A stretch of DNA of 64,000 nt, taken from contig NZ_JAAGWY010000002.1 of the NCBI RefSeq assembly GCF_010686705.1, forward strand, positions 396,001 through 460,000, read 5' to 3'. Made by a program: the position numbers and the translations under genes. Origin of the DNA: Leifsonia tongyongensis. GTDB taxonomy: Bacteria > Actinomycetota > Actinomycetes > Actinomycetales > Microbacteriaceae. How positions within the stretch are numbered: the stretch's first letter is position 1; the number at the start of each line of letters is the position of its first letter. Shown here piece by piece: positions 284 to 56,478 of this stretch. The notes under the pieces are model-generated. The model worked only from the letters and a program-made list of their open reading frames with translations. It made no database searches and had not been told where the DNA came from.

Positions 284-289
284 AGCCTA
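284..289 (-). promoter_or_regulatory. -10 element of a probable leaderless promoter (VIT-family gene)
   Basis: TAGGCT on the minus strand, 6 nt before the ATG at 277, places the expected transcription start on or next to the start codon. No ribosome-binding site is visible between them. No good -35 hexamer is seen. Confidence 0.5.
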
Positions 290-316
290 GAACGAGACAC
301 CGACAGCTCCGCGCAC

Positions 317-2249: not shown

Positions 2250-2318
2250 TTGGAACCAATTTACCGGCTCCCACTGACACCTTCGGCACCGCCAGCTTCG
2301 GCGGGTGTCCGGGCCGAC

Positions 2319-42957: not shown

Positions 42958-43938
42958 TCAGACGTCGTCGAGATCGGCGGGGAGGTTGGCCTCCGTGCCC
43001 GGGATGCCCAGGTCGACAGCGCGCTTGTCGGCCATCGCGAGCAGGCGGCGGATGCGGCCGGCGACGGCATCCTTCGTCATGGGCGGGTCGGCGTGGTGGC
43101 CGAGCTCGTCGAGGCTGGAGTCGCGGAAATTGAGGCGGAGCTCGCCGGCGTAGCGCAGGTGGTCGGGAACGTCGTCGCCGAGGATCTCGAGTGCTCGTTC
43201 TACGCGCGCGCACGCGGCGACAGCGGCCTGCGCCGAACGCCGCAGGTTGGCGTCGTCGAAGTTCACCAGGCGGTTGGCGGTCGCCCGCACCTCGCGGCGC
43301 TGGCGGAGCTGCTCCCAGCTCTGCACCGTGCCGGTGGCGCCCATGTGCACGAGCATGGCGCTGATCGCGTCGCCGTCGCGGATGACGACGCGATGAACCC
43401 CACGCACCTCGCGGGCCTTCGCCGCGATCCCGAGGCGCCCCGCGGCGCCGACGAGCGCCATCGCGGATTCGTTTCCGGGGCAGGTCACTTCGAGCGCTGC
43501 CGAACGACCGGGATCGGTGAGCGAGCCGTGGGCGAGGAACGCGCCACGCCAGACGGCGGCGAGCTCTTCGCGCGACCCGGTGGTGAGCCGGTTCGGCAGC
43601 CCGCGGATGGGTCGGCGGCGCGCATCCAGGAGTCCGGTCTGGCGCGCAAGGGTTTCGCCGCCGTCGAGGACGCGGACGAGGTACTGGCTGGTGCGGCGCA
43701 GCCCTGACGCCGAGATGACCGAGACCTCGCTGCGGACGCCGTAGAGCTCGGCGAGGTCTTTGCGCACGCGTCGTGCGAGCTCGGGGGTGTCGAGTTCGCT
43801 TTCCACGGCGATGCGCCCGGAGATCAGGTGCAGACCACCGGAGAACCGGAGGATGGTCGCCAGTTCTGCCGCGCGGACCGTGGTCTTGCTGACCTCGACC
43901 TTCGAGAGTTCATCTTTGACGTCGGCGGTGAGAGCCAA
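42958..43938 (-). CDS. whiA: DNA-binding protein WhiA
   Basis: A 326-residue WhiA, with the LAGLIDADG-like N-terminal fold ([24 protein letters not shown]) and a C-terminal helix-turn-helix ([26 protein letters not shown]). In Streptomyces it controls sporulation septation with WhiB; in non-sporulating relatives its role is cell division or unknown. The start is a rare TTG at 43938, preceded by AGGA 6-7 nt upstream. It follows rapZ directly; yvcK, usually between them, is absent. Confidence 0.93.
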
Positions 43939-44023: not shown

Positions 44024-44899
44024 TCATTCACGGCCGAGGTCACGATGTTTCGCACTCACGGCGACCCCCGGGAGGGTCTGCAGGCGTGTGACCAGCTCTT
44101 CGGCGATCGCCACGGAACGGTGCTTCCCCCCCGTGCAGCCTACCGCGATCGTGGCGTGCCGTTTGTTCTCACGCTGGTAGCCGGCGAGCACGGGGGTCAG
44201 CGCGGCCACATAGGCATCGATGAATTCGCGTGCACCCGGCTGGCCGAGGACGTAGTCGCGCACCTCGTCATCCTGCCCGGTCAGCGGCCTGAGAGCAGGG
44301 ATCCAGAACGGGTTCGGAAGGAACCGTGCATCGGAGACCAGATCGGCGTCGGCCGGGAGCCCGTACTTGAAGCCGAAGCTCATGACGGTCACCTGGACGC
44401 CGGCGGTGTCCTCCGCTGCGAAGGTCTCGGTGATGCTGGTGGCGAGCTGATGGATGTTCAGGTCGGAGGTGTCGACGATCATGTCCGCCGACTCGCGGAT
44501 CTCACGCAGGCGGGTGCGCTCGGCGGTGATGCCGTCGAGGATCGTCCCGCCGCCCTGCAGCGGATGCGGCCGCCGAACGGCTTCGAAGCGCCTCACGAGG
44601 GCCGCATCCGTGGCCTCCAGGAAGAGCACACGCACCTTGGTTCCGTCGCGGAGACTCTGCACCATGTCCTGCAGGTCGGCGAAGAAGTTGCGGCCGCGGA
44701 CGTCGACCACCGCGGCGATGCGCGGAAGGGTGGAGCCTGCACGGCTCGCCAGCTCGATGAGCGGTCGGAGCATCTGCGGAGGCAGATTGTCGACGACATA
44801 CCAGTCGAGATCTTCGAGCGCGTTCGCCACCGTTGATCGGCCGGCGCCAGACATTCCTGTGACGATCAGCACTTCCTGCTGTTCGTTCTCGGTGGTCAT
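44024..44899 (-). CDS. rapZ: RapZ-family nucleotide-binding protein (YvcJ/RapZ)
   Basis: A 291-residue P-loop protein: [16 protein letters not shown] (Walker A, with Arg in place of Lys, as in many actinobacteria), [10 protein letters not shown] (Walker B-like) and the C-terminal [16 protein letters not shown], conserved in this family. In enterobacteria RapZ directs glmZ RNA decay; in Gram-positives it binds UDP-GlcNAc or nucleotides. ATG at 44899 is chosen as the first codon after GGAGG with homologous sequence; 37 bp separate it from uvrC. Confidence 0.9.
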
Positions 44900-44936
44900 G
44901 GGCGTCGCGCCTCCGCTCGGTCGGTGTGGCTCCAGC

Positions 44937-46946
44937 CTATCGAGTGCCGAGGCGATCATGGATGGCCCCAGCTAGGGAGGGTCCGATGCCTTTCACCTCT
45001 GCGATCTGCTCCGGCGAGGCCTTCTTCAGTTGGGCGACCGAGCCGAAATGCTTGAGGAGTTCTTTGACCCGCGAGGGTCCGAGCCCGGGGATCTCGCCCA
45101 GCACCGAGCCGATGTCGCGCTTGCGCCGGGAACGCTGGTACGTGATCGCGAAGCGGTGCGCTTCGTCGCGGATGCGCTGGATCAGGAACAGTGCATCGCT
45201 GTTCCTGGGGAGGATGACCGGGTAGTCGGAGTCCGGCAGCCAGATCTCCTCGAGACGCTTGGCGATGCCGGCGAGCTGGATGCCCTGCACTCCCGATTCT
45301 TCGAGAGCCCGGGCCGCCGCCGCGACCTGGGGCTGCCCGCCGTCGACGATGAGCAGGTTGGGCGGGTACGAGAACCGGGCGCGACGCTTCTCGGCCGCGG
45401 CAGCGAGCTCGTCTTCGAGCGGGTCGCGGTCGACGGCCTCATCGCCGGGCGCCGTGTCGCCGAGTGCGTTGGGGTCGAGCTCGTCGAGGACCGGTTCGTC
45501 GCCTTCTGATGCGTCGTCCTCGCCGCCCGGTCGGAGATACGCGAGGCGCCGGGTGATGACCTGGTAGATCGACTCGGTGTCATCGGTCGACTCGGGGATG
45601 CTGAACCGGCGGTACTGGTCTTTGCGCGGCAGCCCGTCCTCGAACACGACCATCGAGGCGACGATGTTCGTGCCGCTGAGGTGGGAGACGTCGTAACACT
45701 CCATCCGGAGCGGCGCTTCGTCCATGCCGAGCGCATCCCGGATGTCGCCCAGCGCCTTCGAACGTGCGACGAAATCCGAACTGCGCCGTGTCTTGTACAG
45801 GATGAGCGCGTTCTTCGCGTTCATCTCGACCGTGTGCGCAAGGGCGGCCTTGTCGCCGCGCTGGGCGACCCGGATGCCGACCCGTCCCGTGAGCGGACCG
45901 CGCGACGACGCAGGGTCGCCGTTCTCCTGCCGCCGGGCGGTCAGCCAGAGTTCGAGCTCGGCCGCGTCCTCCGGGAGTTCGGGAACGAGGATCTCGCGCG
46001 GCGGTGTCGAGTCGCCTTCGTAGGCGTTCTGGAGCACGATCTCGACGAGCTCGCCGAGATCCACATCCAGTTCTTTGTCGACCACCCAGCTGCGCACACC
46101 TCGGATGCGGCCGCCGCGGACGATGAACTGCTGCACGGCTGCTGCGAGCTCGTCGTGGGCGATGCCGAAGATGTCGGCGTCGACGTTCTCGGGCAGCACG
46201 ATGGCGCTCTTCGACATCGCCGCTTCCAGTGCCTGGATGGCGTCCCGGTGCCGTGCAGCGGATTCGTAGTCCTGGGTGCTCGCAGCCGCCTTCATCCGGT
46301 GCGTGAGGTCGCGGATGTACCGGGTGTCGTTGCCGGCCATGAACGAGACGAAGTCCTCCGCGATCTCGCGATGCTCGTCCTTGGTCACCCGGCCCACGCA
46401 CGGTGCGGCGCACTTGCCGATGTCGCCGAGCAGGCAGGGGCGCCCCGTGATCTCCGCACGGCGGTAGACGCCGTCCGAGCAGCTCCTCATCGGGAAGGCT
46501 TTGAGCATCAGGTCGACCGTGTCGCGGATCGCCCAGACCTTCGTGTACGGGCCGAAGTAGCGGGCATCCTTGATGTTGCGGTTGCGTGTGACGGTGACCC
46601 GCGGTACGTCTTCACCGAGTGTGACGGCGAGGTACGGGTAGGTCTTGTCGTCGCGGAACTGCACGTTGAACGGCGGGTTGAACTCTTTGATCCAGGTGTA
46701 CTCGAGCTGGAGCGCCTCGAACTCGGTCGCGACGACCGTCCACTCGACCGACGATGCCGACGTGACCATCTTCCGCGTGCGATCGTGCAGGTTGTGAAGG
46801 GGGGCGAAATAGTTGCTCAGGCGAGCGCGCAGGTTCTTCGCTTTTCCGACGTAGAGCACCCGGCGGTTCGCATCCCGGAACCGGTAGACGCCCGGCTGCG
46901 TCGGTATCTCCCCGGCCTTGGGCCGGTAGCTGACGGTATCGGCCAC
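44937..46946 (-). CDS. uvrC: Excinuclease ABC subunit C
   Basis: A 669-residue UvrC. The N-terminal GIY-YIG nuclease shows [20 protein letters not shown] (about 20-40), a UVR domain lies near 205-235, the RNase H-like C-terminal nuclease contains [16 protein letters not shown] and LIVDGGQPQ, and a C-terminal (HhH)2 DNA-binding region [11 protein letters not shown] follows. Makes both incisions in nucleotide excision repair with UvrAB. Starts 9 bp after uvrA. Confidence 0.97.
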
Positions 46947-46955
46947 GGCGGTAGC

Positions 46956-49841
<2,886 letters not shown>

Positions 49842-49951
49842 TCGATCAATTCTCCGCTATTCGTGCGACGTGGCGATCCACGTTCGCTCTCGGCGACAGT
49901 CGCCCCGACCGCGCGGTGCGCCCCCACCCCGGTTGTCCGAGTACACCGCAG

Positions 49952-49967
49952 TCGAACATATCTTCGA
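49952..49967 (-). promoter_or_regulatory. LexA (SOS) box upstream of uvrA
   Basis: TCGAACATATCTTCGA matches the actinobacterial LexA consensus TCGAAC-N4-GTTCGA with one mismatch (C for G). It overlaps the 3' end of a minus-strand TACAAT hexamer at 49967-49972, so LexA bound here would cover the promoter. Confidence 0.6.
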
Positions 49968-49972
49968 TTGTA
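49967..49972 (-). promoter_or_regulatory. Candidate -10 element for uvrA
   Basis: TACAAT on the minus strand, adjacent to the LexA box; expected start near 49960 with a leader of about 118 nt. No good -35. Confidence 0.4.
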
Positions 49973-50039
49973 GCGCTCCCCTGTCGCGCTGTGCGCCCCT
50001 ACGCGGCGAGTCTAAGCCACCCCTCCGACATCGGAGCGA

Positions 50040-50606
50040 TCAGGGTCGCCGCTCCCGCAGAAGCGGTCCGAGGAGGATGAACGCCAGCGCCGCGAGTGCG
50101 CCCGCCGCGACGACAGCGATGGCCGGGAGCGCAGCGCTCGGCGCTGTCGCGGAGGCCAGCCAGAGTGTCGCCGCGATGAGCAGCTGAGTGGGCACCTGGA
50201 TCGCGGCATAGCGGACGGCGGACGGCGCGAGTGCACGGAACTGGACCCTCGACAGCGGTGGCGCCACGAGCATCCACGAGGCGAGCACGTGCTCTGCGTG
50301 CACGCCCGCCACCAGGACGTACGGGTGCCAGTCGAGCGGCTCGGGCTGGCGCGTGAGCACGGTTCCGGCGAGCACCACGAGCATCACCCAGGCCGTCATC
50401 CAGCGCGGCACGGCGACGGCTGCGGCGGCGAGCAGGATGACGACACCGCTCCAGAACGCCGACGTCCCCTCGGCGACCCCCAGGCTCACCGCCACGAGGA
50501 GGAAGACGGCCCGCAGCGCCCAGCCGGGGAGGTGCGCGCCGATGACCGGGGCTCCGGTTGCAAGGTGGGCCGCACCCGGTTCGAGCGTGGTCGGTTCCGA
50601 GGTCAT
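50040..50606 (-). CDS. Membrane protein of the MoxR/DUF58 cassette, unknown
   Basis: A 188-residue protein with about five hydrophobic helices (first near 30-48, then 52-66, 72-83, 134-150 and 158-180) and short loops. I recognise no family. It is the last gene of the cassette and its ATG overlaps the DUF58 stop by 4 bp, so it is translated with it. Its role is probably structural or in membrane sensing; nothing more can be said from sequence. A small CTCCGA/TCGGAG hairpin lies just after its stop. Confidence 0.7.
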
Positions 50607-54332: not shown

Positions 54333-56399
54333 TCAGCCCAGATGTCCGGCTTTCTCCATCTGGCGGAGATCGTGCTTGAGGTCGGAGAGTTCGTCTCGCA
54401 GCCTCGCCGCGAGTTCGAACTTCAGTTCGCCGGCCGCCTGGAGCATCTGCTCGTTGAGGTCGGCGATCAGCGACTCCAGCTCGTTGGCACCGGCTGCGGC
54501 GATGCCTTCGCGCCGCAGGTTGGGGACGGGGCTCTTCCGGCGCTGTTCGCGTCCGGCCAGGATTGCCGCGGTGTCAGCCTCTTCGCGCGCCAGAATGTCG
54601 GTGATATCGGCGATGCGCTTGCGGAGGGGCGTGGGGTCGATGCCATTGACCGTGTTGTATTCGACCTGCTTCTCACGGCGACGCGTCGTCTCCTCGATGG
54701 CCTGCTTCATCGAATCCGTGAGCACGTCGGCGTACATGTGCACCTGACCGGACACGTTGCGCGCCGCGCGGCCGATCGTCTGGATGAGCGACGTGGACGA
54801 CCGCAGGAAGCCCTCCTTGTCTGCGTCGAGGATCGCGACGAGCGAGACCTCAGGCAGGTCCAGGCCTTCTCGGAGCAGGTTGATGCCCACGAGAACGTCG
54901 TAGACGCCGGCGCGCAACTCGGTCAGGAGCTCGACGCGCCGCAGCGTGTCCACGTCGGAGTGCAGGTAGCGAACCCGCACGCCCGCCTCGGCGAGGAAGT
55001 CGGTGAGCTCTTCCGCCATCTTCTTGGTCAGCGTGGTCACGAGCACGCGCTCGTCCCGTTCCGCCCTCACGCGGATCTCCTCGAGCAGGTCGTCGATCTG
55101 CCCCTTGGTCGGCTTGACGACGATCTCAGGGTCGATCAGGCCCGTCGGCCGGATGATCTGCTCGACCACACCGTCGGCGATGCCCATCTCGTACCGGCCC
55201 GGCGTGGCAGAGAGGTAGACCGTCTGGCCGACGCGCTCCTTGAACTCGTTCCACTTGAGTGGTCGGTTGTCCAGAGCGCTCGGCAGGCGGAATCCGTGCT
55301 CGACGAGCGTGCGCTTGCGCGACGAGTCCCCTTCGTACATCGCCCCGATCTGCGGAACCGTCACGTGGGACTCGTCGATCACGACGAGGAAGTCGTCGGG
55401 GAAGTAGTCGAGCAGGCAGTTCGGCGCCTCGCCGGGCTGCCGGCCGTCGATGTGCCGCGAATAGTTCTCGATGCCCGAGCAGAAGCCGATCTGCTCCATC
55501 ATCTCGATGTCGAAGCTCGTGCGCATCCTCAGCCGCTGCGCCTCGAGCAGTTTGCCCTCGCGCTCCAGCTCGACGAGCCGATCGTGGAGTTCGGTCTGGA
55601 TGGTGCCGATCGCCCGCTGCATGGTCGCGGGGCTGGCGGCATAGTGGGTCGCCGGGAAGACCGACACCGCATCCATGCGGTTGATGATCTCGCCGGTCAG
55701 CGGATGCAGGGCGTAGAGCGCCTCGATCTCGTCGCCGAACAGCTCGATGCGCACGGCGTGCTCCTCGTAGACCGGGATGATCTCGATCGTGTCGCCGCGC
55801 ACGCGGAACTTGCCGCGCGAGAAGTCGACGTCGTTGCGCTCGTACTGCATGCCGACGAACTTGCGGATGAGCGCGTCACGCCCGACGTTGTCGCCGACCT
55901 GCAGGGCCGCCATCGCGCCGAGGTACTCTTCGGCCGCGCCGAGACCGTAGATGCACGAGACCGTCGAGACGACGACGACATCGCGCCGGCTGAGGAGCGA
56001 GTTGGTCGTCGAGTGTCGCAGTCGCTCGACCTCCGCGTTGATCGACGAGTCCTTCTCGATGAACGTGTCGGTCTGCGGTACGTACGCCTCGGGCTGGTAG
56101 TAGTCGTAATACGAGACGAAGTACTCGATCGCATTGTTCGGGAGCAGCTCGCGGAATTCCGTGGCGAGCTGGGCGGCGAGGGTCTTGTTGTGCGCGAGGA
56201 CGAGCGTCGGCCGCTGTACGGCCTCGATGAGCCAGGCCGTCGTCGCGGACTTGCCGGTGCCCGTGGCGCCGAGCAGCACCACATCGGTCTCGCCGGCGTT
56301 GATTCTGGCGGTGAGTTCGGCGATGGCCTGCGGCTGATCACCGCTCGGCTTGTACTCGCTGATGACCTCGAACGGGCGGACAGCGCGAGTCGTTTCCAT
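54333..56399 (-). CDS. uvrB: Excinuclease ABC subunit B
   Basis: A 688-residue UvrB helicase-like protein. Walker A GATGTGKS (about 45-52), beta-hairpin [19 protein letters not shown] (Walker B), [26 protein letters not shown], and the C-terminal UVR motif ([20 protein letters not shown]). Verifies lesions and loads UvrC. ATG at 56399 rather than an in-frame codon 30 nt upstream, because TAGACT lies 7 nt before it: a leaderless start. Confidence 0.98.
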
Positions 56400-56406
56400 A
56401 GCCCCA

Positions 56407-56412
56407 AGTCTA
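56407..56412 (-). promoter_or_regulatory. -10 element of leaderless promoter for uvrB
   Basis: TAGACT on the minus strand, 7 nt before the uvrB ATG. No LexA box is visible beside it, unlike uvrA. Confidence 0.5.
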
Positions 56413-56478
56413 AGGAACGCCGCCGACATCGGGTCAGGTGTGCGCTCTCGGCGAAAGAGGGTTACCGGTGCCGCCGGG

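Follow-up and report, generated by a model that had tools for sequence, protein, structure and literature searches.

The window, the whole 64-kb stretch of DNA analysed here, carries uvrB and uvrA on its minus strand, with a cluster of about five genes on the same strand between them. Three genes of this cluster were scanned: two gave no NCBIfam match and one gave general AAA ATPase matches only; we take genes of the MoxR and DUF58 types to be among its members. uvrA, whose product has its nearest named relatives in Microbacteriaceae (76–81% identity), is followed by uvrC, rapZ (named RNase adapter RapZ by NCBIfam) and whiA, and 198 bp lie between its GTG start codon and the gene ending at 50040. 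The features of the region are the following:

56407 to 56428, minus strand: PafBC/RecA-NDp promoter motif of uvrB, TGTCGG-N10-TAGACT, ending 7 nt before the ATG
54333 to 56399, minus strand: uvrB, ATG start, no LexA box upstream
50009 to 50030, minus strand: P1, PafBC/RecA-NDp promoter motif TGTCGG-N10-TAGACT, exact match
49967 to 49972, minus strand: TACAAT, the -10-like hexamer of a proposed promoter P2, sharing one base with the LexA box
49952 to 49967, no strand assigned: LexA (SOS) box, reading TCGAAGATATGTTCGA along the uvrA strand, with one of its half-sites imperfect
49842 to 49951, minus strand: uvrA leader from box to start codon, with GGAGA at 49851–49855 (ribosome-binding) and GCGAAC at 49882–49887
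46956 to 49841, minus strand: uvrA, GTG start
44937 to 46946, minus strand: uvrC, 9 nt after uvrA
44024 to 44902, minus strand: rapZ, 34 nt after uvrC with ATG at 44902; longest ORF from 44959
42958 to 43938, minus strand: whiA, 85 nt after rapZ

Read along the uvrA strand, the upstream region thus consists of TGTCGGAGGGGTGGCTTAGACT (50030 to 50009), TACAATCGAAGATATGTTCGA (49972 to 49952), a leader of 110 nt and the GTG. The LexA box, TCGAACATATCTTCGA at 49952–49967, lies 110 nt ahead of the GTG. It had been proposed in an earlier note as a one-mismatch LexA box, and its sequence, coordinates and single mismatch all proved correct on re-reading of the window; the note also had it abutting TACAAT, which does lie beside the box, but the real relation is an overlap of one T. 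The box matches 11 of the 12 fixed bases of the palindrome TCGAAC-N4-GTTCGA and 15 of 16 bases of the genome's own 16-mer, and so qualifies as an actinobacterial LexA (SOS) operator palindrome, in a genome that encodes both lexA and recA. The boxes of recA (TCGAAGGTATGTTCGG) and lexA (TCGAACACATGTTTGT) in this genome are poorer, with two mismatches each to the 12 fixed bases.

A one-mismatch match to the 12-base pattern is not significant by itself, since the 4.05-Mb genome has 77 places that match TCGAACNNNNGTTCGA with at most one mismatch, compared to 8 for a reversed-pattern control, and the window has three (33944, 49952 and 54415). The full 16-mer TCGAACATATGTTCGA is far more selective: with up to two mismatches it is found at just seven places, four of them exact, one with a single mismatch (the uvrA site only) and two with two mismatches, against none for the reversed control. 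The exact sites lie ahead of an imuA-imuB-dnaE2 set (L003, L211), ahead of a radical-SAM gene (L004), 2 nt before a 103-aa ORF (L002) and within the longest reading of a 133-aa ORF (L001), where a later GTG would follow the box. In the first of these, imuB and dnaE2 show IMS and DNA polymerase III alpha domains, and imuA, the first gene, has no Pfam match and is assigned by position only. The two small ORFs at exact boxes (L001 and L002) are candidate SOS genes in their own right.

The second element, P1, is an instance of the directional PafBC/RecA-NDp motif TGTCRG-N10-TA-N3-T, which excerpts of the mycobacterial literature place at repair genes, PafBC function having been tested in mycobacteria (PMC8151990, PMC6789036, PMC11804915, PMC5656591). 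The motif is matched at 50009–50030 before uvrA and at 56407–56428 before uvrB, so that the presumed promoter of uvrB has the same form as P1 of uvrA. Exact matches number four in the window, all on the minus strand; besides P1, the other three end 6–8 nt before an ORF, namely uvrB, a 609-aa ORF at 2279 and an ORF at 305. As separate observations, the motif at 2258–2279 (minus) precedes this 609-aa ORF, which looks helicase-like by eye, and that at 284–305 (minus) precedes an ORF that is presumably VIT-like, of a VIT family, with dnaE2 adjoining.

A stricter form of the PafBC motif occurs at 10 places in the genome, as against one for its reversed control. Five of the 10 lie ahead of uvrA, uvrB, a gene for an MgsA/RarA-type ATPase, dnaX and a ribonucleotide reductase gene, and the other five (L016, L017, L018, L021, L023) precede genes whose identity is unclear or that are not recognised as repair genes. 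At the ribonucleotide reductase gene (L025) the motif is more than 100 nt upstream, which suggests that nucleotide supply is perhaps linked to damage. At recA, an exact PafBC motif 58 nt ahead of the ATG accompanies a LexA-like box at 144 nt. Adjacent genes for PafB and PafC (L209) are present, and their products match the solved PafBC structure (PDB 6sj9) at 2e-37 and 2e-40.

At uvrB, the earlier note's two statements hold: the best match to the LexA box within 200 nt upstream has three mismatches, and TAGACT, 7 nt and the ATG at 56399 follow one another as expected of a leaderless promoter, as far as sequence can support this. By its motifs, uvrA would thus take PafBC and LexA as inputs and uvrB would take PafBC only. 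The note had concluded that the two genes would be regulated differently. This is borne out by the LexA box at uvrA and its absence at uvrB, but not by the exact PafBC motif that both share; given the shared motifs and the presence of pafB and pafC, both genes are expected to be damage-inducible, and hence equal induction of uvrB and uvrA would not refute LexA control of uvrA. The two are probably partly coordinated rather than separately controlled.

We then considered the conservation of the uvrA region in 30 clade genomes, comprising the window, one other genome of its genus and all 28 genomes found for the sister genus g55. A box with at most one mismatch to the 12 fixed bases precedes uvrA in all 30 (nine perfect, 21 with one mismatch), and in all 30 it is overlapped by one T of a TA[GC]RRT hexamer, with an invariant G two bases ahead of the hexamer. 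Position by position, the strongly conserved stretch reads GNTA[GC]AATCGAACANA-N-[CG]TTCGA. In 18 of the 30 the right half-site has C in place of the consensus G, and the window and the other genome of its genus carry the corresponding change in the left half-site; a reasonable reading of this pattern is that a weak operator is kept on purpose at uvrA. As genomes of one genus are related, the 30 of 30 do not amount to 30 independent events, and the evidence for the box lies rather in the contrast between a block that does not vary and the variable sequence around it. An exact P1 is present in 29 of the 30 genomes, at 136–257 nt before uvrA; it is missing in L234, where the box is kept. Among these 29, the gap from P1 to the box is 37–42 nt in 27 (41 bp in the window) and 53 and 55 nt in the other two.

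What the box is predicted, from sequence, to overlap as a core promoter element is the conserved -10-like TACAAT ahead of uvrA, without a -35: none was conserved across the 30 clade genomes, the bases upstream of the hexamer being low in information, and no sigma-70-type promoter was scored in the uvrA upstream region. The leader holds an element of its own, GCGAAC, which in all 30 clade genomes (window 49882–49887, minus; L107, L108, L110, L111, L218–L242) is 24–25 nt ahead of GCGGA in the ribosome-binding site of uvrA; in g55 it is mostly GCGCGGTGGGCGAACA, and its spacing to the LexA box varies. A search for conserved RNA structure with RNAalifold in 28 g55 leaders returned just a 3-pair hairpin of -3.7 kcal/mol, lower than any of 50 column-shuffled versions, which averaged -0.14 and reached -1.28 at the lowest, though column shuffling destroys stacking and folds of single leaders differ among genomes.

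A survey of the family covered 199 genomes, 197 of them with a match, from which 67 loci in 64 of the 85 genera were drawn among the matches listed and joined to the window; of the 21 genera left unsampled, g23 was listed but passed over, and the others were absent from the matches listed, which leave out weaker ones. Counts for uvrB have n = 67, as L207 is without uvrB; the uvrB anchor lies 9 nt inside the gene, and all distances depend on aligning the proteins to the start codons of the window. An exact sense PafBC motif was found within 200 nt of uvrA at 40 of 68 loci and within 100 nt of the uvrB anchor at 55 of 67, as against none in antisense at either gene and an average of 0.01 at each over 100 shuffles. 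The motif sits at a near-fixed distance, 28–32 nt before uvrA at 27 loci and 37–38 nt before the uvrB anchor at 51, which would give leaderless mRNA at many uvrA and uvrB loci.

A LexA box with up to one mismatch was found at none of the 67 family uvrB loci and, with uvrB coding sequence excluded, at eight of the 68 uvrA loci: five of the window clade, L175, L200 and L201. Two-mismatch boxes occur in L145, L179, L187 and L188. Without the cut at the uvrB stop the count within 200 nt of uvrA is nine of 68, compared to 0.05 on average over 40 shuffles. In many relatives a stretch about 150–250 nt before uvrA fits the pattern xCGAxCTxAAGTTCGA; these apparent LexA sites were discarded as the coding end of uvrB, with uvrA directly after. 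PafBC only is the commonest state with a recognisable motif at uvrA in the family sample (33 of 68), and 23 of the 68 uvrA upstreams have neither motif, some of them following uvrB closely.

Where a LexA-like box is present, its relation to the PafBC motif takes three forms. In the window clade the PafBC motif comes first and the LexA box lies downstream of it. In g79 (30 loci from 31 genomes searched, the remaining genome matching only weakly) the PafBC motif is at -31 in 30 of 30 and the LexA box is upstream of it, at -73 or -74, with one mismatch in 24 of the 30 and two in one more; it is absent in five. In 25 of the 30 loci (L278–L307) about 27 nt separate this LexA-like box from the leaderless-type PafBC promoter downstream of it; this would be an odd site for repression, and the box might perhaps block read-through from uvrB. 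In g15, nearest to a named Leucobacter locus (90% DNA identity), 31 genomes were searched and 30 loci obtained, two of which were wrongly anchored and excluded (among them L277, which has a one-mismatch box). All 28 remaining loci have a LexA-like box, with a single mismatch in 16 and two in 12; it stands at -68 in 16 loci and at -62 to -84 in the others, ahead of a -10-like hexamer near the start codon. None of the 28 has an exact PafBC motif at uvrA. The g15 uvrA regions (L248–L275), together with L028, show the recurrent half-sites TCGCAC/TCGTAC. At uvrB, on the other hand, the exact PafBC motif is found in L145 (g15), L175 (g47) and the Leucobacter locus L028. Control in g15 and L028 thus appears to be split, with uvrA under LexA without an exact PafBC motif and uvrB under PafBC. 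Two-mismatch boxes such as those of g15 are weak singly and draw their weight from their fixed position.

On a tree of UvrB plus UvrA from 67 genomes the window clade falls together on a single branch (SH-aLRT 99). Presence or absence of the LexA box at uvrA takes three changes on this tree when seven genomes are scored as having the box and L145 (two mismatches) and L201 (one) as without; counting L201 as having it would add one change. It would thus seem that uvrA gained a LexA box on about three occasions, and that uvrB gained none in our sample.

Downstream of uvrA, uvrC and rapZ are indeed close behind on the same strand, with gaps of 9 and 34 nt, as the earlier note had it. The order uvrA-uvrC-rapZ-whiA is kept in all five named Microbacteriaceae loci that are long enough (L026–L029, L056), where uvrC starts 2–102 nt past the point at which the uvrA alignment stops. 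The idea that a terminator separates uvrA from rapZ was considered and set aside, as no minus-strand terminator-like site was scored between 42.0 and 50.1 kb; the same scan gave five plus-strand matches against a shuffle mean of 3.7. From this layout, read-through of the uvrA transcript into uvrC is plausible and into rapZ possible; the SOS-inducibility of rapZ that the note had raised would hinge on such read-through alone.

We interpret the uvrA upstream as a two-input DNA-damage control region with a PafBC-driven P1 and a LexA-gated P2, a reading to which we assign a probability of roughly 80%. In this model, with its mechanism taken from mycobacterial work, single-stranded DNA would activate PafBC, upon which the housekeeping RNA polymerase holoenzyme would start at P1. 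About 40 bp downstream, LexA bound to an operator overlapping P2 (TACAAT) would keep P2 off, until RecA triggered the self-cleavage of LexA and P2 was released. Being inside the P1-transcribed region, LexA would perhaps slow P1 transcripts too. The PafBC input would be common to uvrA and uvrB, the extra SOS layer would fall on uvrA alone, and uvrC, and less surely rapZ and whiA, would be carried along by read-through. The motifs, their positions and conservation, and the lexA, recA, pafB and pafC genes are all in place. Binding would follow from the sites, and repression, start sites and induction from what is known of these families. Repression via the box may be weak, the box being imperfect, with a mismatch in 21 of 30 clade genomes.

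The LexA switch at uvrA is in our view convincing on the pattern of sites. That the box might be a functionless chance match draws on how common one-mismatch 12-base matches are in the genome and the window, and the 12-base pattern alone would not reject it; the genome-wide rank of the full 16-mer and its conservation with the overlapping hexamer in all 30 genomes, across two genera and in a leader that is otherwise divergent, rule this out for practical purposes and leave it hardly credible. A larger though still improbable claim is that LexA alone makes uvrA damage-inducible, with uvrB outside damage control. It would account for a good LexA box at uvrA and none at uvrB, and the g15 loci, with a LexA-like box and no PafBC motif at uvrA, indicate that split control probably exists elsewhere in the family. 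It is at odds, however, with the exact PafBC motifs at both genes of the window, the exact P1 in 29 of 30 clade genomes and the presence of pafB and pafC.

Closer to the two-input model is a variant in which LexA acts mainly as a roadblock to P1 transcripts and TACAAT is no working promoter. P2 has no conserved -35, and the near-constant gap of 37–42 nt between P1 and the box in 27 of 29 genomes would fit it. Against it, conservation of the hexamer comes close to that of the box, and the invariant G ahead of it resembles a partial extended -10; furthermore, the four exact boxes of the genome, judged by eye, have no TASAAT flank in that register, so the hexamer at uvrA is not simply LexA context. 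We therefore regard this variant as rather unlikely. A bolder extension, tentative and on the whole unlikely, is that LexA was recruited in the clade to gate an older PafBC promoter, halting P1 transcripts until RecA clears LexA. If so, uvrA, together with uvrC, rapZ and whiA by read-through, would fire only when both sensors report, and after uvrB. The repeated gain of a LexA layer at uvrA but not at uvrB, in different geometries, would on this view suggest that it is the supply of UvrA on which selection for tighter control acts.

Taken with the two-input reading of the window, the family would offer a natural series of ways to connect a single repair enzyme with two damage sensors: PafBC only, PafBC then LexA (window clade), LexA then PafBC (g79) and, in g15, LexA with no exact PafBC motif. 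The series predicts that UvrA and UvrB differ in timing after damage, and that a LexA-independent PafBC response operates in Microbacteriaceae.

Among known systems, as described in excerpts of the papers cited, the kind of control proposed here is already known from mycobacteria, where recA, uvrA and uvrC are under dual PafBC/SOS control (PMC8223512). The PafBC motif in M. tuberculosis is given as TGTCGG-N10-TA-N3-T with variants TGTCAG and TGTCAC, and UvrA is overproduced there without RecA (PMC8151990); PafBC, activated by ssDNA, redirects the sigma-A holoenzyme to such promoters (PMC11804915), and an M. smegmatis pafBC mutant has lower uvrB transcript (PMC5656591). Not all members of the phylum have uvrA under LexA: in the portion of PMC3489674 consulted, uvrC is the sole uvr gene of C. 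glutamicum in the SOS microarray, and a SigH promoter is described for uvrA. In the open-licence literature we found no paper joining Microbacteriaceae with the SOS response, LexA and uvrA together, and neither the site order, the clade-wide P2-box block nor the repeated recruitment described here.

Our own wider scan took in 38 actinobacterial loci out of 80 named ones, two with little upstream sequence, and was made without a shuffle control. An exact PafBC motif precedes uvrA in 18 of the 38, including six of eight Streptomyces loci, at about -60, and Kribbella uvrA has an exact PafBC motif plus a two-mismatch LexA-like site. For S. venezuelae, PMC9380542 (in the part consulted) mentions an initial search by which the M. 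smegmatis PafBC motif did not seem to be conserved; we regard the Streptomyces motifs as a lead rather than a contradiction of that statement. The same source places LexA at S. venezuelae uvrA by ChIP-seq and SPR, more weakly than at recA, lexA2 and dnaE2-2, with a change in uvrA expression just below the study's cut-off, and the window resembles this species in having a LexA site at uvrA. The order is reversed in the six Streptomyces loci we compared (L038, L040, L041, L044, L045, L046; S. venezuelae not included), where a LexA-like site with three mismatches, at -145 to -149, is upstream of the PafBC motif at -59 to -61. Of two mycobacterial loci, L034 (Mycolicibacterium) matches the PafBC motif exactly, at -37, and L039 has no exact match; within 350 nt neither has a LexA box, the best match having four mismatches in each. 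Relative to the mycobacterial PafBC promoters, those of the family stand out in that 51 of 67 uvrB and 27 of 68 uvrA upstreams have the motif at a near-fixed, leaderless-type distance. Thus, as in mycobacteria (PMC8223512, in excerpt), uvrA would be under PafBC and LexA as separate inputs to one gene, with UvrABC in the PafBC regulon, whereas, unlike in mycobacteria, the LexA box of the window lies downstream of P1, over a second -10.
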